NCBI GenBank assembly: GCA_020445605.1
Contig: JAGRGH010000003.1
Span: forward strand, 1 to 64,000
DNA: 64,000 nt
Direction of reading: 5' to 3'
Source of the DNA: Chromatiales bacterium
Lineage (GTDB): Bacteria > Pseudomonadota > Gammaproteobacteria > JAGRGH01
Under the pieces are notes generated by a model. That model ran no database searches. It was not told the origin of the DNA and saw only the letters and a list, made by a program, of their open reading frames with translations. Shown piece after piece: positions 42,208-58,481 of the stretch. Both the position numbers and the translations under genes were made by a program. Each line of letters begins with the position of its first letter. Within the stretch, counting starts at the first letter, position 1.

Positions 42208-43428
42208 TCAGCCAATCAGGCCGATTGGTGTCGGGGTAAAGCCCGGCAGGATCAGACCGGTGTCGGCGACGCCGAGGAAGCGCGTCAGCACCTCGGCCAT
42301 GACGTCGCGAAAATCGATGCTGTGGTCGAGGTAGCGACCGTCGTGGAGATTCGCCGGGGCGAGCCCGGGCCAAGCACCATGCACACCGCCGTGGATGCCG
42401 TTGCCGGCCGCGAACCAGGCCGCGGCATGGCCGTGATCGGTGCCGCCGCTGGCATTCTCCTCGGCGGTGCGGCCGAACTCGGTCATGCTCAGGATCAGCA
42501 CGTCGTCCATGCGGGTGCCGAGGTCCGTGACCAGCGCGGCAATGCCGGCGGCGAAGTCCGCATGCCGACCGGCCTGTGGACCCTGGGCGCCGCCTTGGCC
42601 CGAATGCGTATCCCAGCCGCCGATGTCGGCGGTCGCGACCTCGAGCCCCACGTCCGCCTTGATCAGGGCCGCGACCTGGCGCAATGAAGTGCCAAAGCCC
42701 GACTCCGGGTACTCGGCACCGTTTTCGGGCACGTAGTTCGAGATGTCGATCGCGGCAAGCGTCTCGAGGTTGTCGAGAAAGGTCAGCCCGGCCTGATGCA
42801 GGGCCGCACGGTGGCGGTCTTCGGCGTCGATCGACTGTTCGTAGACCGTGGCCAGCGCGTTCACCAGAACCTCGCCGTCACCGCCGCCGAACCCGAGATT
42901 GCCGATGTCGTCGAGCGTGGCGACCGGCACCTCGCCGCGCAGCGCATGCGCGAGCGAGCCGCCCATGCTGACCGCGCGCACGGCGGCGTCGATGGAGGTC
43001 TGGGCCAGGTAGCGGTTCAGCCAGCCGTCGATCGACGATTCGGGCTGGCCGCTTTCGATCCAGCGCTGGCCATCGAAATGCGACTGCGAGGCGTCCGGAT
43101 ACTGCACGGCCGGCAGCACGCCGAGACGGCCGTCGAGATACAGGGCATGCAGCGGCGCGAGCGCCGGATGCAGGCCGAGGAAGCCGTTCAGGTTCAGCGC
43201 GGCCGCCGGGTTGCCGGCGTTCGGCGGCGCGATGCCGATGCCCGGACGCAGACCGGCGTAGTACGGATCGCCAAATGGCACCACCGTGTTCAGGCCGTCG
43301 CAGCCGCCGCGCTGAAACACGACGACCAGGGTCGTCGGGTTCGCTTCGGCGGCCTGCGCGAAACGCAGCCGCAGCGCGCCGGTTGCGAGCGCGCCGGCGG
43401 TGAATTTCAGGAAGCGACGTCGCTGCAT
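42208..43428 (-). CDS. DUF1501 family Tat-exported protein
   Basis: About 406 residues with a twin-arginine signal (MQRRRFLKFTAGALATGAL). The DUF1501 domain is marked by VVFQRGGCDGLNTVVPFGDP, the family's SMGGSLAHALRGEVPVATLD region, and DVLILSMTEFGRTAEENAS with GGTDHGHAAAWF. The family has a sulfatase/phosphatase-like fold, activity unknown, and almost always neighbours a DUF1800 gene, as here. ATG 43428 has GGGG upstream. ATG 43446, overlapping the DUF1800 stop as ATGA, is the alternative and would imply coupling. Confidence 0.92.
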   Translation of the reverse strand: MQRRRFLKFTAGALATGALRLRFAQAAEANPTTLVVVFQRGGCDGLNTVVPFGDPYYAGLRPGIGIAPPNAGNPAAALNLNGFLGLHPALAPLHALYLDGRLGVLPAVQYPDASQSHFDGQRWIESGQPESSIDGWLNRYLAQTSIDAAVRAVSMGGSLAHALRGEVPVATLDDIGNLGFGGGDGEVLVNALATVYEQSIDAEDRHRAALHQAGLTFLDNLETLAAIDISNYVPENGAEYPESGFGTSLRQVAALIKADVGLEVATADIGGWDTHSGQGGAQGPQAGRHADFAAGIAALVTDLGTRMDDVLILSMTEFGRTAEENASGGTDHGHAAAWFAAGNGIHGGVHGAWPGLAPANLHDGRYLDHSIDFRDVMAEVLTRFLGVADTGLILPGFTPTPIGLIG

Positions 43429-43442
43429 GCTGTGACCCCGTG

Positions 43443-46400
43443 TCATTGCAGGTGGAACGCCGGGAAGCCCAGCGCCAGCGCGATCGCGGTGCGCACGCGC
43501 TCGTCGGCCGCTTCAGCGTCGAGGTGGCCGAACGGCAGGTCATTGGCCGGCGCGAGCGCGCCGCGCAGAACCGACCATTCGACGTCCGAGTAGTCGTGCG
43601 CGAACAGGCGTTCGGCGAGCGCCCCGGCGATGCCGTCGGCGGTCGTATGGCCCTGCGCGTTCAATGCGCCGAGCGGATCCAGCAGATGGTTGCGATACTC
43701 GCCGGGGCGGGCGAACGCCAGCTCCGAACCAAGGCGCACCCGCGCGAGCAGCTGGTTGGAATGCGTCCAGCGTTCGCCAGTCTCGGCGTAACCGGTCGGC
43801 ACCGGGTTCTGCATCAGCGGCATGCCGAGGTCTTCCAGTGCCGCGCGCATGCCGTTGCGACCCTGCACGACGCCGAGCGCACGCGAGGTTGCCAGCACCG
43901 ACTCCAGTGGCGTGCGCACCTTCATCTGCGCATTGGCCAGATCGCTGAACGCCGGCGAATGCAGGATGTGCGACACGACCGTGCCGATGTGGCCGTCGGT
44001 GTCCATGAACACCCCGGCGCATTCGTCGATCGCGTCCGCGTGCGGGTCGTCGCGCACGAACAGTTGCAGCAGCTTCGTGCAGACGTGGTGCGCGGTGGAC
44101 GGATGCGCGGCGAGGATGTCCAGCACGTCCTCGCCGTCCTCAACCCCGCGTCCGGCGGCGAGCACATGACCCAGCACGGTTTTCTCACCGTTGTCGTGCC
44201 AGTGCGAGCGAAACTGGAACGCACCCTCGCGCACCGTCCAGCCGGTCAGCGCGCGGGCGACCTCCTCGACATCGTCCTGGGTGTAGCCGCCATCGACGCC
44301 CATGGTGTGCAGTTCGAGCAGCTCGCGCGGGTAGTTCTCGTTCGGGTTTTCCTTGCGGCTGGTGGCGTTGTCCAGGTACTTCAGCATCGCCGGGCTCTTC
44401 GCGCTGATCCCGAGCAGGGTGCGGAACCCACCGAATGCGTTCGCGCGGAACGCCTCGATTTCGGCGAGCTCCCAGCCCCAGTTGCCGTGCTTGTTCAGAT
44501 CGGTGTTGAAGTGGTTGTCCCAGAACCAGGTCATGAGCTCACGCAGCTGCGCTGCGCTGAGCCGCATGTGCGTGAGCCACCAGTTCTGCAGGTCCGAACG
44601 TGAATCCACCGGCCCGAGTTCGGCGAGCGCCGCTGCAAGTTCGGCACCGGGATCGAGGTTCGGATCCAGCTGTCCGTTCAGCCAGTCTTCGACGCCCGTT
44701 GCACGGATCGCCGCGAGCAGTTCCGGCGTCGGGCCAAAGCTCGCGCGCCGGGCCAGCTGCATGGAATCGATCGGCTCCTCGACGACCGCGAGTGTCACCG
44801 AGCGCGTGCGTCGGTTGCCGCTGAAATCGGTTGCCTCCACGCGCAGATCGAGCGTCTCGCCGGGCGCGGCCACGCCGGACGGCAGTGGCACCTGAAACGC
44901 TCCGCCGCGTGGCGGAAAGTCGAGTTCCAGACTGCGGGTTTGGCTGCCGGTGAGCGTCGCGCGCAGGTTCGCGATCTGGCTGTTGTCGCTGATGCTGCCG
45001 CTGATCACGGCGCCGCCCGTCCAGCTGACATCCGGCGCAGCGAGGCTGAGGTCTGGCGCCGCACCGTCTTCGAAAACCTCGACTGCAACTTCGGCGACCG
45101 CGCCGTTCTTGGCGGCATCCCAGGCGAACGCGCGCACCGACACCGGGCCGGGGCCGCCGATGGCGGCCGCCGGCACGGTCGCGCGCCAGAAGCCGGTGTC
45201 CGCAAACAGCTCGGCGTGAACGAACTCCACCACGTCGCCACGCGCGATGCGCAGCCGCACGCCGTCGACGCCGACGCGGTCGTGGGCGACGCCCAGCACG
45301 CGCATGCCGCCGGTTCCGATGCGTGCGCCGGCGACCGGCTCGATCAGCGTGATCTGCGGCGGGCGGAAGTCCGGCTGCAGCGGCTGGTCGCGCGTCAGCT
45401 CGAAGTCGAATTTGGCCGGGGCCGTGATCCAGTCGCTGTAGTAGTGCTCGCCGTCGCCGAACGGATTGACGGCTTTGATGACATAGATCGGCCCGCCGCC
45501 GAGGTCGGTCGGGTCGAAGCGCACCGTGCCGCCCGCGTCCGTCATACCGTCGTTCTGCCACTTGCGTTCGCCGTTCCATTCCTTGCGGATGACGACCAGC
45601 TGCACGCCGGCCAGCGCCTGGCCGGTGTCGCCCGCGACCAGCCGCACGGGGAGCTTGCCGAGCCGGAATCGGTATTCGCCGGTCGCCGTCAGCGCGTCGC
45701 TGACCGCCCAGCCGCCGTTGTAGGGCTGTGCCTTGAGCTCGTAGACGCGGCCGGCGCCGAGCCCGTCGAGGTCCAGGGTCAGGCGGCCGTCGGCGTCGGC
45801 GGTCCGTCGCGTGACCCAGTGCGTGCCGTCGGCGACGCGCTCACGCACCGTGATTTCGATCCCGGCCAGCGCAGCGCCGCTGTGGAAGTCCTCGACCCGC
45901 ACTGCGAGCGGCGCATTGCCGACCGTGAAGCGGAACGCCCCCGCGGTCTCGAGGATGGCGCTGTATTTCCAGGATTGATCGATCGTGCTTTGCGCCTTGA
46001 GCCGGTAGCGTCGGCCCTGGCCGAGCCCCGGGGCGTCGAACACGGCCTGGCCGCTGGCATCGGTCTCGACCCGGCTGATCCAGCGCTGTTCGTCGTTGGC
46101 GAGGACTTCGACGAGGGTGATGTCACGGTTCGCGAGCGGTTCGCCGTCGGCGCCGGAGACCGCGGTCACCGGCAGCTGCCCGACCTCCAGCCGCACCCGT
46201 CCCGGCGCGGTGATCTCCGCCGATTCCAGCCAGCCGCTGTCGCTGGCGTTGGCGAGAAAGTAGTAGCGTGCTCCGCTGCCGAGTCCGGCGAGTTCGAAGC
46301 GGGCGATGCCGTCGGCGCCGGTTGCCGTTTTCGCGCGCCACGTGGACTTGCCGTCGCCGAGCCGCTCGCGCGCATGCACATCGACACCTGAGCGCGGCGT

Positions 46401-47928: not shown

Positions 47929-47961
47929 CACCTCAACCCACTCACTTGCGTGAACACCGTC

Positions 47962-49242
47962 ATGAACGTTCCGGCTGAACTTGATCTGTCCGTCGAAGAC
48001 TATGTCCGCCAGCTCGGGCGCGAGGCCCGCGCGGCGGCCGCCGCCATGGCGCGCGCGGAGACCGGCGCCAAGAACGCCGCGCTCGAGGCGATGGCGCATG
48101 CGATCGAAACCGGCGCGAAAACGCTGACCAGCGAGAACGCGCGCGACCTCAAGGCCGGTCGTGCGAACGGGCTCGACGATGCGCTGCTCGACCGGCTGGA
48201 ACTCACCCCGGCGCGGATCGGCGCCATGGCGCAGGGTCTGCGCGAGATCGCCGCGCTGCCCGACCCGGTGGGCGCCGTCACCGATCTCAACTATCGGCCG
48301 AGCGGCATCCGCGTCGGGCGCATGCGCGTGCCGCTCGGCGTGATCGGCATCATCTACGAATCCCGTCCGAATGTGACCGCGGATGCCGCCGGGCTGTGCC
48401 TGAAGGCTGGCAACGCCACCATTCTGCGCGGGGGCTCCGAGGCGATTCACTCCAACCAGGCGATCGCCGCCTGCGTCGCGAACGGGCTGGCTTCGGCCGG
48501 CCTGCCGGAGACGGCGGTGCAGGTCGTTGCCACGACCGATCGTGCGGCGGTCGGTGCGCTGCTGACCATGCCGGAGTATGTCGATGTCATCATCCCGCGC
48601 GGTGGCAAGGGCCTGATCGAGCGCATCAGCCGCGAGTCGCGCATCCCGGTGATCAAACACCTCGACGGTATTTGCCACGTCTACATCGACGCCTCGGCCG
48701 ACCCCGCCAAGGCCATCGCGATCGCGGACAACGCCAAGACCCATCGCTATGGGGTGTGCAATGCCATGGAAACCCTGCTCGTGGATGTCGCGATCGCAGC
48801 GGATGTGCTGCCGCAGCTGGGCAAGATCTACACCGGCAAGGGTGTGGAGCTGCGCGGCTGCGCGCGTACCCGCGCCATCCTGCCGACGGCGAAACCGGCG
48901 ACCGAACAGGACTGGGGCACGGAGTATCTGGCGCCGATCCTCGCCATCCGCATCGTCGACGGACTGGATGCGGCGATCGAGCACATTGAAACGCATAGCT
49001 CGCACCACACCGACAGCATCGTCACGCAGGACTGGACGCGCGCGCAGCGCTTCCTGCGCGAGGTGGATTCCAGTTCCGTGATGGTCAACGCCTCGACGCG
49101 CTTCGCCGACGGCTTCGAATACGGGCTCGGCGCCGAGATCGGCATTTCCACCGACAAGCTGCATGCACGCGGCCCAGTCGGGCTCGAGGGCCTGACCACG
49201 CAGAAATTCGTCGTGATGGGCGACGGCCACGTGCGCAAATGA
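47962..49242 (+). CDS. proA: Gamma-glutamyl phosphate reductase
   Basis: Second enzyme of proline synthesis, 426 residues. Family blocks: [57 protein letters not shown] and the catalytic cysteine in [16 protein letters not shown] preceded by [14 protein letters not shown] (GVCNAMET). ATG 47962 is used; GTG 47950 is in frame. Neither has a good ribosome binding site, perhaps because repeat copy F lies just upstream. In Pseudomonas proA is followed directly by nadD; here five exported-protein genes intervene. Confidence 0.95.
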
Positions 49243-49369: not shown

Positions 49370-51397
49370 ATGATTCAGAACTCGCGCACCGCGACAGGTC
49401 ACGCGCGAGCGTCCGGTTGGACCGGGCGCTGGGTGCTTCTGTGGTTGGCCGTTCTGGCCGGGCCGTTCGCGGTTGTGCCGAACGCGCACGCCGACCCCCG
49501 CGCCTGGATCGCGACCCAGCTCGACGGTCGCTGGCAGGTCGGGACCAACTGCGCCCCCTGCCGGCCACTCGCCCAGTCGCTCGAGCAGGCCTACAACAAC
49601 GCCGCTGTGCTCCAGCAGCGTTTCCGCAACGCGCTCATCGCGGCCCGTGACATCCAAGCCCGGGCCAACGCGAATCCTGACGACCCTGCGGCGCAGCGCG
49701 CGGCACGCAAGGCCAACGGCGATGCGCTGGCCATCCAGAACCAGCTGTTCCGCATCGAGGGGTTGGTCGAGCAACTCGAGCGTCAGCTATCGGACTGCGA
49801 GAAACAGTGCGGTATCGAGGGGCCTGGCGAGGGCGGCCAGACCTTCCGTTTCAGTCCCTCCGGACACAACGAATTCAACGGCTGGCATGTGCCAGTCGAA
49901 CTCCCGGGGGACGCGAGCCGCGCGGCCGGCGTTCCGGGTACGCCGCCACCGCCGCGCGCATTGACGCAGCTGAACCTCACCACCGACTGCGCGGCGTGCA
50001 ACCAGATCGTCGCCGAGGCCAACGAATGGCTGCGCGTCCAGCGCGTGATCCACAACGCCTGGATCAACAGCCTGAGCGATGCGGAGAAAAACCAGATCGA
50101 CATCGGCGGTTCACACTGGCCGATGTACCGCAACTACAGCGCGCGCCTGTGGGGGCAGTGGCAGAATTTCAAGTCCGCGTTGCGGAGCTGCGAATTACGC
50201 AATTGCGGGAGGTTGGGTGGTCTGGGCCTGTTATTGGGCGGGATACCGAATGACCTGTTGCAGCTGGTGAGCACGAACTGCGCTCCGTGCCGCGATCTGG
50301 CCCGCGAGATCAATTCCCTGATCAGTTTCATCCAGCTCGACTACGATCCGGACGAATTCTGGGACGACCCGCCCCCACACGAGATGCGCGACGAACTCGA
50401 GCGGCTGCGGGCGCTGCTTGCGGCCTGCGAACGGCGCCGCTGCCCGCCGCCGACCACGCCCGGCGGGGCGCTGACACCGGGTGGTGCGACCACGCCAGGC
50501 AGTGGTTCGACACCGGGTGGCGCCGGCGGCAGCGTGAACCCGGGCGGCTCGAAATCCGGCGGCGGCTCGACCGGCAAGGACCACGGCTTTTATCTGGGCC
50601 CGAAACTCGGTTACGACTATGCCTATGGCCTGCGCGCGGACTACCTCGACCAGCGCGAGGACAAGCCGCCGGTGATCCGCTACACCTCGCCCACCATCGC
50701 CGGCTTTTCGCTGGGCACCTCGTGGGGCGAGGAAGACGGCTGGGATAAGGCGCTGCGCTACGCCGAGGACTTCGGCACCTTCCGGGTCAAGACCGAATCC
50801 GTGCGCGGCATCAACGGTTTCAACCAGTTCGATTCTTGGGGCATTCAGGACCGCTTCGCGCACCCGCCGCCGTTCTCCGGCAGCGGCTCCGGCGGTTCGA
50901 GCGGCAGTTCCGGCATTTCGACGAGTTCCAGCGGCGGATCGTCCTCTTCGAGCAGCAGCTCGGGCAGCAGCTCCGGCAGCAGCAGTTCCAGCGGCAGTTC
51001 GAGCAGCAGTTCGGGTGGATCGTCGGGCATCGGCATGACGCCGTTCGGCGGCAGCTACAACACCGTCTGCACGGCTGCACCGGGCAATCCGCACAGCGCA
51101 TTCGACGAGTTCGGCCAGCAGACGAGCTTCACGCTCAATGTGCAGATCTCGGGCTCGCTGCTGAGCCTGAGCGGCTCGGCCGCGTTCGGCTCGAAGACCG
51201 GCAATCTGAACAACGGGCAGTTCACGGCCTCCGGCGTGAACACGGTGGCGGGATTCCAGAACGTCTCGACCTACAGCATGGGGCAGTTCCAGGCCAACGG
51301 TGTGAACACGATCGAGTTCGCCGAACATCGTGGCTGGAATATGGAGCTTCCCGGCGGTCAGCCGTCGTCCTACAACTGCCTGGGTACGCAATTTTGA
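49370..51397 (+). CDS. Exported protein with three CxxC/Cx3-4C helical modules and Ser-rich linker
   Basis: Family not recognised. 675 residues. A signal peptide (about 1-42, ending PNAHA) is followed by three similar modules, each opening with TNCAPC or TDCAAC and closing with C-x3/4-C about 50-85 residues later: C61/C64...C143/C147, C207/C210...C274/C279 and C304/C307...C353/C358. The sequence between is helical, Gln/Arg/Leu-rich and coiled-coil-like. Then come a TPGG-rich linker (about 360-400), a segment with YLGPKLGYDYAYGLRADYL, a strongly Ser/Gly low-complexity stretch (about 500-560) and a beta-type C-terminus with two cysteines. GGGGG precedes ATG 49370. The stop overlaps the next start (TTGA). 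Disulfide-pinned hairpins or metal sites in the envelope are likely; no enzyme motif is seen. Confidence 0.8.
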   Translation: MIQNSRTATGHARASGWTGRWVLLWLAVLAGPFAVVPNAHADPRAWIATQLDGRWQVGTNCAPCRPLAQSLEQAYNNAAVLQQRFRNALIAARDIQARANANPDDPAAQRAARKANGDALAIQNQLFRIEGLVEQLERQLSDCEKQCGIEGPGEGGQTFRFSPSGHNEFNGWHVPVELPGDASRAAGVPGTPPPPRALTQLNLTTDCAACNQIVAEANEWLRVQRVIHNAWINSLSDAEKNQIDIGGSHWPMYRNYSARLWGQWQNFKSALRSCELRNCGRLGGLGLLLGGIPNDLLQLVSTNCAPCRDLAREINSLISFIQLDYDPDEFWDDPPPHEMRDELERLRALLAACERRRCPPPTTPGGALTPGGATTPGSGSTPGGAGGSVNPGGSKSGGGSTGKDHGFYLGPKLGYDYAYGLRADYLDQREDKPPVIRYTSPTIAGFSLGTSWGEEDGWDKALRYAEDFGTFRVKTESVRGINGFNQFDSWGIQDRFAHPPPFSGSGSGGSSGSSGISTSSSGGSSSSSSSSGSSSGSSSSSGSSSSSSGGSSGIGMTPFGGSYNTVCTAAPGNPHSAFDEFGQQTSFTLNVQISGSLLSLSGSAAFGSKTGNLNNGQFTASGVNTVAGFQNVSTYSMGQFQANGVNTIEFAEHRGWNMELPGGQPSSYNCLGTQF

Positions 51398-51894
51398 ACG
51401 CGCTGGGGCGAATTCTCGGGCTTGCCGCGCTGGCCGCAGCGTTTGCCGCGCATGCCAGCGAGTTCCGCATGCTGAACCCGATCGCGCAGCCGGAGGTGCT
51501 GCCCGAGGGCGCCATTGCGGTCGATCGCATTCGTCCGGTCTCGCCACGCGTGATCGAAAAGGCCGTCGACAATCTCATGGCCGCATGGAACACCGCGCAG
51601 CTCGGCGAGCTGATCAGCGACCGCTTCTACGACAAGGACCGCCTGCTCGACAACATCGCGGCCTTCGTTCCGCGCGATGCGACGGTGCGGGTGCTCGGCG
51701 TGCAGTCTTCCGATACCGTCAGCCAGTACATTCTGCCGAACCAGCTTGATCCGAACCGCGCCATGCGGATCAGCAAGGTCGTGGTGAACGTGCGCACGCA
51801 GGTCGAGTACACGGACGCGAACGGGCAGTTGCAGCGCCTCGATGGCCTGAACGAATACACCTTCGAGGTTGAACAGCGGTTGCGCAAGAAATGA
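51394..51894 (+). CDS. Small periplasmic protein of the exported-protein block
   Basis: 166 residues, family not recognised. A signal peptide (MNALGRILGLAALAAAFAAHA) is followed by EFRMLNPIAQPEVLPEGAIA and an alpha+beta region. One helix-rich part (VIEKAVDNLMAAWNTAQLGE) precedes several strands (TVRVLGVQSSDTV, ISKVVVNVRTQVEYTDANG), a pattern compatible with an NTF2-like fold but not proof of it. The start is TTG at 51394, overlapping the previous stop, and its own TGA overlaps the next ATG (ATGA). The three genes should be translated as a coupled unit. Confidence 0.75.
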   Translation: MNALGRILGLAALAAAFAAHASEFRMLNPIAQPEVLPEGAIAVDRIRPVSPRVIEKAVDNLMAAWNTAQLGELISDRFYDKDRLLDNIAAFVPRDATVRVLGVQSSDTVSQYILPNQLDPNRAMRISKVVVNVRTQVEYTDANGQLQRLDGLNEYTFEVEQRLRKK

Positions 51895-54056
51895 GCCACT
51901 CGCGCACCGTCGCCGGCGTTTTTTTCGCTGCCGCGCTTGCGGGGCCGGCTGCCGCGTGGTCGCCAAGCGAGCTGTTCGGCGATGCGCTCGGTGAGTGGGA
52001 CATCCGCGGGACGAACACCGCGCGCATCGAGTACTACGAGAACCACGGCGATACCTCGCAAAGCCCGTATCCGCATGAGGGCAGGCAGCTCTACGACGAG
52101 TTCGACATCAGCTTTGCACGGCGCTTCTCGCGTTACGAGAACGTCTTTGCCCATGTCAGCGGCGTGCTCAACGATTCCGAATACCGCGCACCGGACGAGG
52201 GCATCGTGCCCGAGCGCATGTCGCTGCGCTGGGAAAAGGGCGACGCCGCCGTGCCGTTTCGGGCGGAGTTCGGCGACTACTACGGCTACCTGAGCTATCG
52301 CACCCTGCAGCGCTCGCTGAAAGGTGTGCAGGTCGACCTGCAGCCGAGTTTTGACGCAGCGTCGACCATGCGTCATTCGATCCTGCTGCTGGCCGGCATG
52401 GATCAGCCGTTCTGGCGCGAGGTCAACGTCGATGAAAACGCCTACCTCGCCGCGTCCTGGCTCGTGGAAGACCCGAAGCTCGGCCGCTTCAGCGCGAACA
52501 CCGTGCACAACACGCGCAGCACCGCCGCCGGTGATCTCGAACAGTGGGTGCAGACCTTCGCGGGCGAACACGAATTCCGTTTCGACCGGCACCGGCTGAC
52601 GGTCGAGGGCGAACTCGGTTATTTCAACGGCGAACACACGACGCCGGGTGACGATGAATCCGGCATCGGCTGGTTCCTCGAGGCACGCGGCCAGCACGGC
52701 CGTCAGTTCACCTATCGCCTGCGCCACGAGGACTACGACGGCGACTACCGGCCGACCGGCGCGGTCATCAGCTATGACCGGCGTTCGAACGAGGCGCATG
52801 TCGGCTGGCGGTTCAACCAGGGGCTGCAACTGCGTGGACGCTGGCAGCAGTGGATCGATTTCAACGACAGCGCAGATTCGCAGACCACCGACACCATTGG
52901 CCTGAACCTGACCGGACCGTTCGGCGCCGGGTTGACCGGCAGCCTGCAGGCGTTCCGGCAGGAGATCGACAACGACACCAACACCGTCCAGCGCGACACC
53001 GATTCGGTGCAGCTCGATCTGGCCCGGGCGTTCGGTGGCGGCTGGCTCGGACGGCTGGCGTTGCTGTATCAGGATGTCGACGACCGCACCGCGACGAACG
53101 CCGACAGCGAGACCCGCCAGGTGCACGTGAGCGCGAGCCATGCGGTGCGTTACGGGCGCGTGACCGGGCAGTTCACCCCGGGCCTCCTGTATCGCGATGT
53201 CGATGCGACCACGGGCGACAGCGAGGACTGGAACCCGACGCTGAACCTGCAACTCGCCGCCGGCGCGCACAGCCTGGGCGTGAGCTACGGGTATCTGTCG
53301 CAGAATCGCGATGCATCGGGTGATCTGGTCACGCAGACCGCGGCACTCGACTACCGCTTCACGACCGGTCCGCACACCTTCGGCGTCGAGGCGAATCTGT
53401 TCGATCGCTGGATCGACGGTCCGGCGGATGTCGACGCCTGGCGCGTGGGTCTGTTCTGGACCTTCCGCTTCGACAAGCCCGCGCTCGGCGCCGCCAGGCC
53501 CGGCGCGCTGGCCGCGACGTTTGCGCCGTCGACCGGTGCGCTGCCCGACGGTGTGCGCCTGCTGGCCGGACTGGCGCCAGGCGAACGCATGGCGCGCGCG
53601 ACCGGGCGTCTGACCGAGGCCGGTTATGGCGCGCCGCTCGAACTCGTCGACGCGGTGACCTACGACGCGGTGGTCCTGCCCGCGATCGACCAGCGTCAGC
53701 GGCTGGTGCTGGAGCGCCGTGGTCCGATCGTCGAGCGCAGCGCGCTGGTGATCGATCTCGATCCGAACGGTGGCCCGGACAATGCCGCGCAGACCTTCGA
53801 GCGGGTGCGCGAGACGCTGATCGAGACCTACGGCCGACCGGGCCGCACGCTCGATGACGGCGAGTTCTCGGCCGAGTTTGTTGCCGATGTGAACGCGGGT
53901 CGCCTGACGCGCGTCAGCGACTGGAACTTCGCCGACGGCGTGCTGCGTCTGGGTATTCCGCGTCGTCTCGATGGCGCCGTGCGCATCGAAGTGCAGCATG
54001 CGCGTTCGCTGCCGCCGCCGACCGAGCCGCTGTGGAGCATCGAGTCTGTGCCGTAA
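51891..54056 (+). CDS. Predicted outer-membrane beta-barrel protein with C-terminal periplasmic-type domain
   Basis: 721 residues, family not recognised. A signal peptide (MSHSRTVAGVFFAAALAGPAAA) is followed by about 450 residues of alternating, aromatic- and charge-rich strands separated by short polar turns (for example FTYRLRHEDYDGDYRPTGAV, EAHVGWRFNQGLQLRGRW, WRVGLFWTFRFDKPA), as in a large outer-membrane barrel. After the last barrel-like strand (about residue 525) comes a separate domain of about 190 residues including LVIDLDPNGGPDNAAQTFER and ending with LRLGIPRRLDGAVRIEVQ. It could be a secretion or adhesion pore for the cysteine-module protein encoded upstream. ATG overlaps the previous stop. 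Confidence 0.75.
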   Translation: MSHSRTVAGVFFAAALAGPAAAWSPSELFGDALGEWDIRGTNTARIEYYENHGDTSQSPYPHEGRQLYDEFDISFARRFSRYENVFAHVSGVLNDSEYRAPDEGIVPERMSLRWEKGDAAVPFRAEFGDYYGYLSYRTLQRSLKGVQVDLQPSFDAASTMRHSILLLAGMDQPFWREVNVDENAYLAASWLVEDPKLGRFSANTVHNTRSTAAGDLEQWVQTFAGEHEFRFDRHRLTVEGELGYFNGEHTTPGDDESGIGWFLEARGQHGRQFTYRLRHEDYDGDYRPTGAVISYDRRSNEAHVGWRFNQGLQLRGRWQQWIDFNDSADSQTTDTIGLNLTGPFGAGLTGSLQAFRQEIDNDTNTVQRDTDSVQLDLARAFGGGWLGRLALLYQDVDDRTATNADSETRQVHVSASHAVRYGRVTGQFTPGLLYRDVDATTGDSEDWNPTLNLQLAAGAHSLGVSYGYLSQNRDASGDLVTQTAALDYRFTTGPHTFGVEANLFDRWIDGPADVDAWRVGLFWTFRFDKPALGAARPGALAATFAPSTGALPDGVRLLAGLAPGERMARATGRLTEAGYGAPLELVDAVTYDAVVLPAIDQRQRLVLERRGPIVERSALVIDLDPNGGPDNAAQTFERVRETLIETYGRPGRTLDDGEFSAEFVADVNAGRLTRVSDWNFADGVLRLGIPRRLDGAVRIEVQHARSLPPPTEPLWSIESVP

Positions 54057-54155
54057 CGGCCCGCCAGCCAACGCAGATCGCGCGACTGGCGGCTAGACTC
54101 AGAAGACAAGACTCCGGCGCACGCTGGAGTTCCGCGACCGACTGGAGGTGCATCC

Positions 54156-56135
54156 ATGCGGGCACCACGCAATGCAATTCGCCGCGCCGCCACTGTCGTG
54201 GCCAGCGTTCTGTTGCTCGGCCCGACACTCGCAGTGGCCGGCAGCATTTCGGGCGATCTGGAAAGACACCTGGATGTCATCGCCCAGAAGCTCACCGAGT
54301 CCGGCCTTTCCGAACTGGTCACGCGCGACCGTGATCTCTCGCGCACCGAGCGTGACGAGATCGTTCGCGCCCGTGACGCGCTGACCGACTGGCTGTCGGG
54401 TCCGACCTTCGGTGGCGACAAACTCGGCGACATCGAACGAGCCAACGATGAGCGTGAAAAAAACGGTGCGACCACGCGCACCTCTGTGAGCTGGACACCA
54501 CCGAACGGCGAGATCCATCTGCATCTGTCAAATGATTACGAATGCGGTACCGGGCTGCGGCAGGTCCGTATCGTGCTGCGGATTTCAATCGCCGGGCCTG
54601 ATGCGCGCGGTCGTTACCAGGTGAACCGCATTGAGGAGATGCGTGTCACGCGAGTCTATTGCGATCGTTCGCGCGTGACGGCGGAAAGTCGGCTGTTTAC
54701 GACCGGGGCTGGGCAGCTCGCGGTCAGGGCAACGCCGCGGGAGGCGGACCCACAGGCCCAATCCGAGCGCGAACGCCAGCAGGCAGCGGCAGCGGCGGAG
54801 GCGCGACAACTCGCCGCGGATGTCGAGTACGAGCGCCAGCGCAAGGCCGACGAAGCGCGCCGTCAGCGCGACGCGCAACAGGCCCGTGATCGTGTGCGCC
54901 AGCAGGCCATTGAAGCGCGTAATCAGAAGTGTCAGCAGTGCGAGGAACTCAAGCGCCAGCTTGCCGCCGCCCGCGGCCGCCTGCAGCGGGTCGAGGGCGA
55001 CATGACGGCGAAGGATGCCGAGGTCAACGCCAAGAACGCCGAGATCGGCCGTGTGCGCGGGCAGATCGCCGCGCTCGAAGGTCAGCTTTCGGCAACGACC
55101 GGCGACTGGGCCGAGTCGACCGATCCGCGCACGGGGGTGCGCATCCGCTCGGTCGGCAATGCCGACGGTAGCCATACGATCTATCGCTGGGATGCCCGCG
55201 GCCGTCCGATCGGCGAGCCCGAGCGCGTGGACACCGGCAATCGCGAACGCTTGCAGCAGCGCCTCGCGGGCCTGCGCACAACGCTGCAACGGCTTACCGG
55301 CGAACGTGATCGATTGGCCGCCGAGTGGCGACGTCTGCGTGACCGGCGCCACGAGATTCGCGACGAGATCGGTCGGCTGGAACGCGAACTGGCGGAGTGC
55401 ATGCGCAGTTGCGACAAACAGTCGCGCGACCTCGGGATGCGCGCGCCCTACAACACGCCCATCGATCGCGGCACCGCGATGGCCCCGGCTGACGGCTGGG
55501 TCGAGGAGTCCGAAGATGCGCAGATTGCACTCCTCGGTACGCAGCAACGCGGCGGCGAGAATCCGTTTGCCGCTGGCAGTGTCGGACAGGGACCGACCCT
55601 GCGCGGTGTCCAGCCCGAACCGCGCGAACCGGTCATCGGGCCGAAGATTCAGGTGCCGCAGGGCGGCGATCCGAACCTGCGGCAGGAGGCCATCGAGCCT
55701 CGCGATACGACCGTGGTGGTCCGTACACCGAGCCCACGCGAGCCCGTCCCGATGCCAATGCCGAGCGATCGGGAGATCATGCTCGCGACGATCTCCGCGT
55801 GGACGATCGGGATTGCACACGGCGCCAATTCCAGCGACCTGTGCGCGGCGATGGACTTCCTGTACTCCGCCGCGCTGGCACGCGATCTCATGGGTTCGGT
55901 GCTGACCGTGCTGCATACCGATCCCACCGGTCGCAGCCAGACATTGCGCTACCCGCTGCTTTCCCCTGATACGCGCATACTCGCAAAGGCGCGCATCTTC
56001 ACCTACGGTCTGCACATCATGCGGGTGCTGTCGTTCATAACCCCGACCGGGCAGTCCGTGCAGCTGCGTGGCGAGCTGGAAGGACGCATCCGCGTCGACG
56101 CAACGGAGCCTAATCGCCAGGTGTGCTCGCAGTAG
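54156..56135 (+). CDS. Exported coiled-coil protein with one CxxC/Cx3C module
   Basis: 659 residues, family not recognised. GGAGGTG is nine bases before ATG 54156. A signal peptide (VVASVLLLGPTLAVAG) precedes a small N-terminal domain with C130 and C169. A Gln/Arg/Ala coiled coil (about 200-258) follows, then C259QQC262, a broken coiled coil (about 263-410) and C415MRSC419: the same CxxC...CxxxC plan as the three modules of the 49370 gene. Between the coils is DGSHTIYRWDARGRPIGEPE, resembling an RHS/YD-like turn. A Pro-rich linker precedes a C-terminal domain (about 545-659) with MLATISAWTIGIAHGANSSD. Separated by 99 bp from the barrel gene and possibly with its own promoter. Confidence 0.78.
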   Translation: MRAPRNAIRRAATVVASVLLLGPTLAVAGSISGDLERHLDVIAQKLTESGLSELVTRDRDLSRTERDEIVRARDALTDWLSGPTFGGDKLGDIERANDEREKNGATTRTSVSWTPPNGEIHLHLSNDYECGTGLRQVRIVLRISIAGPDARGRYQVNRIEEMRVTRVYCDRSRVTAESRLFTTGAGQLAVRATPREADPQAQSERERQQAAAAAEARQLAADVEYERQRKADEARRQRDAQQARDRVRQQAIEARNQKCQQCEELKRQLAAARGRLQRVEGDMTAKDAEVNAKNAEIGRVRGQIAALEGQLSATTGDWAESTDPRTGVRIRSVGNADGSHTIYRWDARGRPIGEPERVDTGNRERLQQRLAGLRTTLQRLTGERDRLAAEWRRLRDRRHEIRDEIGRLERELAECMRSCDKQSRDLGMRAPYNTPIDRGTAMAPADGWVEESEDAQIALLGTQQRGGENPFAAGSVGQGPTLRGVQPEPREPVIGPKIQVPQGGDPNLRQEAIEPRDTTVVVRTPSPREPVPMPMPSDREIMLATISAWTIGIAHGANSSDLCAAMDFLYSAALARDLMGSVLTVLHTDPTGRSQTLRYPLLSPDTRILAKARIFTYGLHIMRVLSFITPTGQSVQLRGELEGRIRVDATEPNRQVCSQ

Positions 56136-57073
56136 TGCGACGCAGGTTTGCGGCAGTCGCACTGGCGTTCGCGACCAGTGCGGGCGCGGTCGTGCCCATC
56201 CCCGACGGGGCGGCGCGTGCCTACGCGATGAGCCTGCCGGCCTGCGATGCGGGGTATGAGCCGGTCGCGCGGGAACTCGTGTCGCTGGCCCGGCGCGTTG
56301 CGGCGTTCCGCCCCGTGCGGGTGTTCACGCCCGAGGCGTGCAGGCAGCGTTTCGCCGGCATTGCGCACGTCAGCACGCATTGGGCGCAGCCCGATTCACA
56401 CTGGATTCGCGACTACGCGCCCGTCTGGGTGCGCGACGGCGCGCGGGCTGTACTCGTGGACCTGCCGTACCCGGCCGCCAACGACGACGGCATCCCCGGC
56501 CGACTCGGTGCTTTACTGAAACTGCCAGTGAAGACGATCGACGACCGCGCCGTGACGTTTCTCGGCGGTGCGTTCGAGGCCGATCATCTCGCGCGTTGCC
56601 TCGTTACCCGCTGGGGCAAGGACTGGCAGAATCAGCTGATGGCCGATCGCGCGCGCGAATGGTTTGGCTGCCGCGCGGTGATCGCACTGGAACCGCTGCC
56701 CGGCGAATCCACACGCCACGTGGACATGCACACGCTTCTGCTCGACGACGGGCGCGCCTTTGTCGCCGACTATCCTGACGGTGAGTTGCGCGAGGTCATG
56801 CGGCGCAACGCTGCCCGGCTTGCGGCGGCCGGTATTGTGCCGCTCCCCGTCCCGCAGCCAGCGCCGGACGACGGCGTGTACCTGAGCTACGTGAATGCCC
56901 TGGTGCTCGGTCGCAACGTGCTGATGCCGGTGTATGGCGACCCGACTACGGATGGCCCGGCCGCCGCCGCGTATCAAGGTGCCGGTTTTCGTGTGATCGG
57001 CTCGCCGGCGCGCGAGCTGATCCGTTATGGCGGCGCGCTGCGCTGCTCGACCGCGCCGATCCATGCCGACTGA
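56123..57073 (+). CDS. Exported agmatine/peptidylarginine deiminase-family protein
   Basis: 316 residues with an N-terminal export-type signal (AAVALAFATSAGAVV). Despite divergence the guanidine-modifying family's catalytic residues can be placed: W94IRD97YAPVW, H199 and D201 in GESTRHVDMHTLLL, and Cys308 in GGALRCSTAPIH. Agmatine deiminases are normally cytoplasmic; a signal peptide fits the peptidylarginine-deiminase (PAD_porph) branch. Substrate could be agmatine or arginine in exported proteins. Starts are GTG 56123 or GTG 56135, both overlapping the previous stop. Its 3' end overlaps nadD by 11 bp. Confidence 0.78.
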   Translation: MLAVVRRRFAAVALAFATSAGAVVPIPDGAARAYAMSLPACDAGYEPVARELVSLARRVAAFRPVRVFTPEACRQRFAGIAHVSTHWAQPDSHWIRDYAPVWVRDGARAVLVDLPYPAANDDGIPGRLGALLKLPVKTIDDRAVTFLGGAFEADHLARCLVTRWGKDWQNQLMADRAREWFGCRAVIALEPLPGESTRHVDMHTLLLDDGRAFVADYPDGELREVMRRNAARLAAAGIVPLPVPQPAPDDGVYLSYVNALVLGRNVLMPVYGDPTTDGPAAAAYQGAGFRVIGSPARELIRYGGALRCSTAPIHAD

Positions 57074-57710
57074 TCCGCGACTGATCGGGGTATTCGGCGG
57101 CACGTTCGACCCGGTCCACCGCGGCCACGTCGAGACCGTGCGCGAGTTGCGCGGGAAACTGCGGCTCGATGCCGTGCGGGTCATTCCGCTGCGCGCGCCA
57201 CCGCATCGGTCGCCACCGCTCGCGTCGGGTGCGGATCGCGTGCGCATGCTGGAACTCGCCTTCGCCGACCTCGACGGCTTCGTGATCGATCCGCGCGAAC
57301 TCGAACGCGAAGGCACGACCTACACGGTGGACACGCTGCGCGAGTTGCACGCGGAGTTTCCGGACGACCGCTGGGTGCTGATCGTCGGCGCGGATGCGTA
57401 CGCGGGCCTCGAGACCTGGTCGCGCTGGCGGGAGATTCCGCGGCTCGCGCACCTCGCGGTCATGCAGCGCAACGGCGCGCCGTTGCCCGCTGAGGCCGTG
57501 CGCGATGCGTTTGTGCCTGTGACCGATCCGGCTGAGTTGCGCCAACGCGGCAGCGGCCTGCGAATCGAGGTGACCATCACACCCGTGGAGGTTTCGGCGA
57601 CCGACATCCGTCGCAGGCTCGCAAGCGGCACGACCGCGGAGGAAGAGCTTCCATCCGCGGTCGCGGCCTACATCGCTGAACACGGTTTATACGGTTCAGG
57701 CGCTGCTTGA
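57063..57710 (+). CDS. nadD: Nicotinate-nucleotide adenylyltransferase
   Basis: NAD synthesis enzyme of 215 residues. The nucleotidyltransferase motif GVFGGTFDPVHRGHVETV (GGTFDPVHxGH) and the C-terminal PVEVSATDIRRRLASG (SATxIRxRL) are intact, with VLIVGADAYAGLETWSRWRE between. Starts within the last codons of the deiminase gene. rsfS and rlmH, which often follow nadD, are absent here; a palindromic element follows instead. Confidence 0.96.
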   Translation: MPTDPRLIGVFGGTFDPVHRGHVETVRELRGKLRLDAVRVIPLRAPPHRSPPLASGADRVRMLELAFADLDGFVIDPRELEREGTTYTVDTLRELHAEFPDDRWVLIVGADAYAGLETWSRWREIPRLAHLAVMQRNGAPLPAEAVRDAFVPVTDPAELRQRGSGLRIEVTITPVEVSATDIRRRLASGTTAEEELPSAVAAYIAEHGLYGSGAA

Positions 57711-57740: not shown

Positions 57741-57990
57741 GTGGGCCAAGTGGCAAGATCTGTAACGCTCAGCCACGCCGCAAGTCTTGTGGGCAAGGCG
57801 CAGTCCGCAGGGAATGGCAGGCCCTTTCCAAGGACCGCGACACAGCCCACGATGCTTGTGGCGCGGCCCTTCGGGAGCGCGACTGGGTGTTGCGTTCCTT
57901 GGCAAGGGCGGGGCCATTGCCCGCGAAACGCGCCTTGATTCGCGCTCGCACGGTGACTCTGAGTGTCACAGAACCTTCCACTTGGCCCAC
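57741..57990. mobile_element. 250-bp near-palindromic element (MITE-like or structured RNA)
   Basis: GTGGGCCAAGTGG at 57741 is answered by its exact complement CCACTTGGCCCAC ending at 57990. The two arms, about 105 bases each, remain alignable along their length with mismatches (for example CCAAGGACCGCGACAC against CCAAGGAACGCAACAC). The centre, about 57851-57883, folds again around CTTCGG. The outer end coincides with the stop codon of the macro-domain gene. No convincing target-site duplication was seen and no transposase is encoded. Confidence 0.75.
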
Positions 57991-58481
57991 TAGGCCCCAG
58001 GTTCCTGTGCCTGCTGGCCCTTGTGGTAGGTCGTATAGATGTAGACCGGTGTCGAAATATCCCCGAGCGCCTGGTCGATCACCGGCTTGACCTCGCTCCA
58101 GTCGAGCCCACCGACCCCGGTGGCCACCTTCGGTAGCGCCAGCGACGCAATCGCGGATTTCTCCAGCTCATGTCGCAGCCGCTTGAAACAATGGCTCACG
58201 TTGCTCAGCGTGGCACGGCCGGGTTTCGCGCCCGGATGGTGCTCGCCTTCCTGCGTCAGCAGGTTATAGATTCGTACACCGCCAACACCGCCCCATTCCC
58301 ACAGTTCGCCCGGCTGCGGATGGGTCTGGTGTGCGTAGTGACGAAAGTCCTTGACCATGGCCGGCCACATCTCCCGCAACGCGAGTGCCAGACCGGAATC
58401 GAAATGGTCGTTCGGCGCCACCCCGTGTGCGATTGCCTGAGCCTTCGTCAACAAGATATCGCCCGTCACTTCATGAATCAC
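57990..58481 (-). CDS. Macro-domain protein
   Basis: A 163-residue single macro domain, binding ADP-ribose or its derivatives. MIHEVTGDILLTKAQAIAHG is the domain start, with APNDHFDSGLALALREMWP replacing the classical NAAN/GGGVA loop, then IYNLLTQEG and LPKVATGVGGLDWSEVKPVI. The HGVAPNDHF type loop resembles the ADP-ribose-1''-phosphate hydrolase/TARG1 branch, so de-ADP-ribosylation is plausible. No DarT-like toxin partner is adjacent. The TAG stop overlaps the last base of the palindromic element. Confidence 0.88.
   Translation of the reverse strand: MIHEVTGDILLTKAQAIAHGVAPNDHFDSGLALALREMWPAMVKDFRHYAHQTHPQPGELWEWGGVGGVRIYNLLTQEGEHHPGAKPGRATLSNVSHCFKRLRHELEKSAIASLALPKVATGVGGLDWSEVKPVIDQALGDISTPVYIYTTYHKGQQAQEPGA

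Follow-up and report, generated by a model that had tools for sequence, protein, structure and literature searches.

A recurrent proteobacterial gene module of a predicted wide outer-membrane barrel, an NTF2-like protein and a variable exported scaffold: a candidate export or anchoring device

Between proA and nadD in a Chromatiales bacterium lie five genes for predicted exported proteins, and the question they raise is whether they form a single envelope system and what such a system might do. We analysed 64,000 nucleotides around them (GenBank assembly GCA_020445605.1, contig JAGRGH010000003.1, positions 1 to 64,000; hereafter the window). The five genes, P1 to P5, fill the proA-nadD interval on the plus strand (Table 1), with intergenic gaps of 127 bp between proA and P1 and of 99 bp between P3 and P4. 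P1 and P2 overlap by TTGA (51394-51397), P2 and P3 by ATGA (51891-51894), and P4 and P5 by 13 bp. The nadD frame is open from 57027, and the ATG at 57063 (MPTDPRLIGVFGGTFDP) is its likelier start; from this ATG, nadD overlaps P5 by 11 bp. All five products have a signal-peptide-like hydrophobic N-terminus, with 12-residue Kyte-Doolittle maxima of 1.9-2.4, compared with 0.9 for proA and 1.3 for nadD. The order of the five genes, their export signals, the TTGA and ATGA overlaps and the P5-nadD overlap had all been read from the sequence in a preliminary description, and each was confirmed. No sigma-70 promoters were found in a search that is uninformative at this GC content. The window also encodes a DUF1501 protein (42208-43446, minus strand) and, just downstream of nadD, a Macro-domain protein (57990-58481, minus strand) scoring 22.6 bits, barely above the Pfam cut-off.

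Table 1. The five-gene block and its flanking genes (positions in the window)
Feature	Position	Strand	Description
proA	47950-49242	+	left flank of insertion site; NCBIfam match
P1	49370-51397	+	675 aa; 'A'-type exported scaffold
P2	51394-51894	+	TTG start, 166 aa; small exported protein, NTF2-like in AlphaFold2 model
P3	51891-54056	+	721 aa; outer-membrane barrel (model) and C-terminal alpha/beta domain
P4	54156-56135	+	659 aa; second exported Cys-hairpin coiled-coil protein
P5	56123-57073	+	GTG start, 316 aa; exported PAD_porph (agmatine/peptidylarginine deiminase-like) protein
nadD	57063-57710	+	right flank; NCBIfam match

Of 30 nadD loci sampled from Gammaproteobacteria, 25 have proA immediately upstream and the other five have holA there, so the five-gene block is an insertion. 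Its GC content is close to that of the rest of the window (66.8% vs 66.6%), so a recent acquisition has no compositional support. Thus, of the earlier proposal that the block was acquired or expanded at a conserved site, the insertion at a conserved site stands, while the GC content gives no sign of recent acquisition. The gene rsfS normally adjoins nadD. Here it is found on another contig (G000:C37:88794-89087) rather than beside nadD, so the right flank of nadD has also been rearranged in this lineage.

We compared 18 loci in detail (designated by L and a number), using 'A' for the variable exported protein gene that is linked to P2 and P3, which in the window is P1. P2 and P3 were linked in these loci and an exported A gene lay beside P2; P2 and P3 overlapped by 4 bp in 11/18, and P3 was upstream of A in four. 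The 18 loci span Gammaproteobacteria, Zetaproteobacteria and MAGs labelled Alphaproteobacteria or Desulfobacteraceae and occupy unrelated sites, with none of the other loci inspected located between proA and nadD. No other broadly recurring partner besides P2, P3 and A emerged from an all-against-all comparison of the neighbours. In two loci of one family from the phylum sample, a FecR-domain gene lies between P3 and A (L085:6011-7141 and L088:5134-6264, both on the minus strand). Few genomes carry the module, and these are scattered: 4/75 sampled genomes (own genome included), 14 genome contigs and 7/398 genomes of the phylum had P3 relatives, and 8/369 genomes of the class had P2 relatives. 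At L043, an additional copy of P2 is accompanied by an A gene but P3 is not nearby, and P2 was not found in one genome carrying P3 fragments. The co-occurrence of Cys-module, small periplasmic and barrel genes away from proA-nadD, which the preliminary description had proposed as a check, was thus found in distant bacteria, and we are all but certain that the A-P2-P3 module is real and recurrent.

The same comparison separates P5 from the module. P5 scores 87 bits against Pfam PAD_porph (cut-off 25), and Asp, His and Cys match in its alignment to 6b10, a solved structure of the deiminase family; family score and predicted catalytic residues identify it as a putative PAD_porph/agmatine deiminase-like protein, in agreement with its first assignment to the deiminase family. 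However, no P5 relatives were found at E <= 1e-15 in 368 other genomes of the class or at E <= 1e-3 in related module loci, so the five genes do not form a single unit. Judged by sequence comparison, the recurrent unit is P1-P2-P3.

The AlphaFold2 model of P3 (pLDDT 81) has 26 strands in residues 37-529, an even number, and both barrel termini are on the same side. The modelled barrel begins at residue 37, straight after the signal peptide, has a longest inter-strand gap of ~14 residues and is followed by an alpha/beta domain (residues 553-705) that is predicted to be periplasmic; P3 is therefore modelled as an unusually wide outer-membrane barrel. The nearest solved barrels were generic (MtrB, FimD, AlgE and OccK), with MtrB having the top query-normalised TM-score among the Foldseek matches listed (0.42). 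Pfam and NCBIfam gave a Porin_4 match for P3 of the window; among 14 P3 members scanned, one had Porin_4 and one a SPOR (peptidoglycan-binding) domain. The latter is N-terminal in P3 of a Mariprofundus MAG (L024:310-3246), a locus in which one gene downstream of P3 is made of near-identical 20-residue repeats. In another genome, a 232-aa protein with an LAGC lipobox-like start (L014:9609-10307, minus strand) has the C-terminal domain of P3 on its own.

P2 was modelled with a pLDDT of 84.6 as helices lying against a curved sheet of long strands, and its best matches were NTF2-like domains (Z 8.0-8.8, with an rmsd of 2.1-3.4 for most), pointing to an NTF2-like fold; P2 has no lipobox. The small periplasmic protein and the barrel-like protein of the preliminary description are therefore both retained, as a predicted NTF2-like protein and a predicted 26-strand barrel, respectively. 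Neither has a curated family of its own in Pfam or NCBIfam, and sequence searches against solved structures returned nothing meaningful for either. P3 had no match in plasmids or in viral contigs.

A proteins are far more variable. Their typical plan is a signal peptide, a variable body, a junction, a Gly/Ser/Thr-rich linker and a C-terminal domain. The bodies consist of one to three CX2C...CX3-4C helical hairpins, of 14-20-residue tandem repeats or of acidic repeats, and the N-termini have extracellular-type content, namely HYR domains, GEVED and tandem repeats. Where hairpins are present, their four Cys are invariant in the alignment, while several A proteins have no Cys hairpin at all. The C-terminal domains fall into several unrelated types and often contain Cys; one type, GPDxC...HYH...CxG...DPAPGxCGxG, is common to A of L015, L016, L017, L018 and L026 and has no Pfam match in any of the five. 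The junction, a segment of ~30 residues of the form VxLIxVxxxxGxNPFDxxDP, occurs in most of the other loci: its profile detected 15/18 A proteins at E < 0.01 in leave-one-out searches and gave an independent match in L085 (E 4e-9), in its A gene, the ORF between P3 and P2.

A was the least conserved of the three proteins in 153/153 locus pairs, with mean identities of 0.14 for A, 0.35 for P2 and 0.37 for P3, and the divergence of P2 correlated with that of P3 (Spearman 0.63), in contrast with that of A (0.02 vs P3); these statistics are descriptive, since related pairs are not independent. L018 and L019 have P3 proteins that are 66% identical, and their A proteins align over the 33-residue junction only (E 2e-6). 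For L018 and L026, P3 is 79% identical (one sequence being partial), and the similarity of the A proteins is limited to the C-terminal domain and to one hairpin arm together with the junction. Taken together, the variation of A beside conserved P2 and P3 looks as if passenger bodies were swapped while the machinery stayed the same.

In the window, the signal peptide of P1 is followed by three CX2C...CX3-4C helical hairpins (residues 61-147, 207-279 and 304-358), a Gly/Ser-rich linker and a C-terminal segment with two Cys, and P4 has a single hairpin of this type, which spans residues 259-419 and carries an RHS-like beta insert at its tip. A hairpin profile built with the window excluded matched P4 (E 4e-15) and P1 (E 2e-8), with all shuffles and other ORFs under the threshold. 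The triple cysteine module originally noticed in P1 and the same module in P4 are thus confirmed. When the hairpin profile was run against 369 genomes of the class, four matched, all P2-positive; since all four had contributed profile rows, this search shows specificity only. Against solved structures it found generic coiled coils only. P1, P2 and P4 have no family in Pfam or NCBIfam, and P4 had no match in plasmids. P4 is most readily interpreted as another scaffold paralogue, resembling the A proteins of other loci.

The window thus has the P2-P3 linkage and the exported A gene that define the module, without a junction-profile match in A. The junction profile gave no score on P1 or P4, suggesting that in this genome the proposed signal has degenerated or is missing; P1 has a look-alike, GINGFNQFD, at the expected place before its Ser-rich linker. 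Homology of the P1 C-terminus to the C-termini of L020, L023 and L042 was rejected after a negative profile test, and where the DNA of the Ser-rich region matched other parts of the genome, the matches were low-complexity.

What might such a module do? Our preferred reading, which we rate at slightly below an even chance, is that P1-P2-P3 exports surface scaffold proteins through the outer membrane or anchors them in it. With more reserve, we suggest that it represents a new protein export system of several proteobacterial lineages, in which a 26-strand barrel and its NTF2-like partner recognise a GxNPFD-type junction and thread exchangeable scaffolds to the surface. Sec would export A, P2 and P3, and P3 would fold in the outer membrane as a very wide barrel. 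Periplasmic P2 and the C-terminal domain of P3 would then engage A, probably at the junction, as a recognition or anchor site. The flexible linker might remain inside the barrel with bodies on either side of the membrane, or all of A might pass through. A (P1, with P4 as a second) would end up on the surface as a coiled-coil scaffold or adhesin braced by disulfides, and its Cys hairpins, if oxidised, would be rigid struts. We infer the surface exposure of A, the passage of its linker through the barrel and the role of the junction; surface exposure is suggested by the variability of A, its HYR and GEVED content, its long Gly/Thr linkers and its tandem repeats, which resemble surface proteins. 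Three observations count against the export reading: the silence of the junction profile on P1 and P4, the A C-termini not being one family and the generic nature of the PDB barrel matches.

Periplasmic tethering or solute/polysaccharide transport would account for the same gene linkage. The main rival, which we consider unlikely, is a tether across the periplasm: A would remain there, its coiled-coil hairpins bracing the P3 barrel against either the cell wall or the inner membrane, and P2 would be the connector. Disulfide-type coiled-coil hairpins suit periplasmic struts, P3 of the Mariprofundus MAG carries its SPOR domain, and the C-terminal domain of P3 is predicted to be periplasmic. However, the surface-type features of A listed above argue otherwise, no peptidoglycan-binding domain was detected in the A proteins scanned against Pfam, and SPOR is confined to 1/14 P3 proteins. 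A transport pore, with P3 carrying a polysaccharide or large solute and A and P2 being accessory or regulatory, is quite improbable in our view: the generic porin matches of P3 (Porin_4, and the AlgE and OccK structures) are consistent with it, but genes for glycan synthesis or transport are not recurrent in the neighbourhoods and Porin_4 is restricted to a single member.

We give very little credence to a single five-gene system with P5 as a deiminase acting on arginines of P4 or P1. Although P4 is rich in Arg (13.5%), its gene shares 13 bp with that of P5, and P5 aligns to 6b10 with the three residues in register, P5 was found neither in other module loci nor in the 368 class genomes at the E values given above. 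The one-system proposal of the preliminary description, modifying enzyme included, is therefore not upheld, with P5 not conserved with the module and P4 a probable second scaffold; of its envelope structure or secretion/adhesion device, the envelope proteins, the barrel and the disulfide-type scaffold remain, and the five-gene assembly with an enzyme does not. Least credible of all is an MtrB-like electron conduit with redox centres held by the four Cys of A, for which the shared number of modelled strands, the top MtrB score, the invariant hairpin Cys and the module's presence in a MAG of Mariprofundus, an iron-oxidiser genus, could be cited, but CXXCH haem motifs number 0 in the A proteins of the 18 loci, several of which lack the hairpin, and the structural match is weak.

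We also asked whether a named system describes the module. Like chaperone-usher systems (FimD/PapC), it is an operon of a large barrel with a periplasmic C-terminal domain, a small periplasmic partner and exported scaffolds, and FimD is among the top structural matches of P3. However, ushers are defined by a 24-stranded barrel (PMC8410936), whereas P3 is modelled with 26 strands, with neither room for a plug domain nor an N-terminal periplasmic domain; P2 is NTF2-like rather than an Ig-fold chaperone and matches no chaperone family, and A lacks pilin or donor-strand features. Two-partner secretion (TpsB/TpsA, Omp85) likewise pairs a dedicated barrel with a large exported passenger of variable sequence, but no POTRA or ShlB family match was found in 14 P3 members, the modelled strands number 26 rather than 16, there is an extra NTF2-like partner, and the common segment of A is near the C-terminal end instead of being an N-terminal TPS domain.

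MtrB is itself a 26-strand barrel (PMC7198977), and the P3 model shares with the MtrAB porin-cytochrome complex this size and a barrel that could house a partner; the partners are unrelated, A has no haem motifs, the structural similarity is weak, and none of the 14 P3 members matched the NCBIfam MtrB model. LptD-LptE also has a 26-strand barrel, but P3 has no Pfam match to an N-terminal OstA-type jellyroll, and P2 is NTF2-like and lacks a lipobox. GfcD/YjbH belongs to the group 4 capsule operon, GfcD being two barrels with a domain between them (PMC11494523). That operon similarly combines a small exported protein, a periplasmic partner and a large barrel protein, but identity was rejected since P3 is one barrel with no match to the GfcD family. 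VirB8, a membrane-anchored type IV secretion component, is an NTF2-like periplasmic subunit (PMC8012802) and so a precedent for this domain in an envelope secretion machine, although type IV secretion genes are not recurrent at module loci. The zetaproteobacterial stalk cluster sfz was rejected because it is for exopolysaccharide synthesis. No such module was found among the open-access papers searched. The module is apparently unnamed, the usher, two-partner, MtrB and LptD features tested being absent except for strand count, and the initial impression that it is not any described system holds in that no named system fits P1-P2-P3.

If the export or anchoring reading is right, the module would add, in mostly uncultured bacteria, a way of exporting or anchoring large surface proteins that is built on a barrel. 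It would add two conserved families without a curated model, together with a short putative sorting motif, and would offer a handle on the role of many hypothetical coiled-coil, Cys-rich exported proteins.
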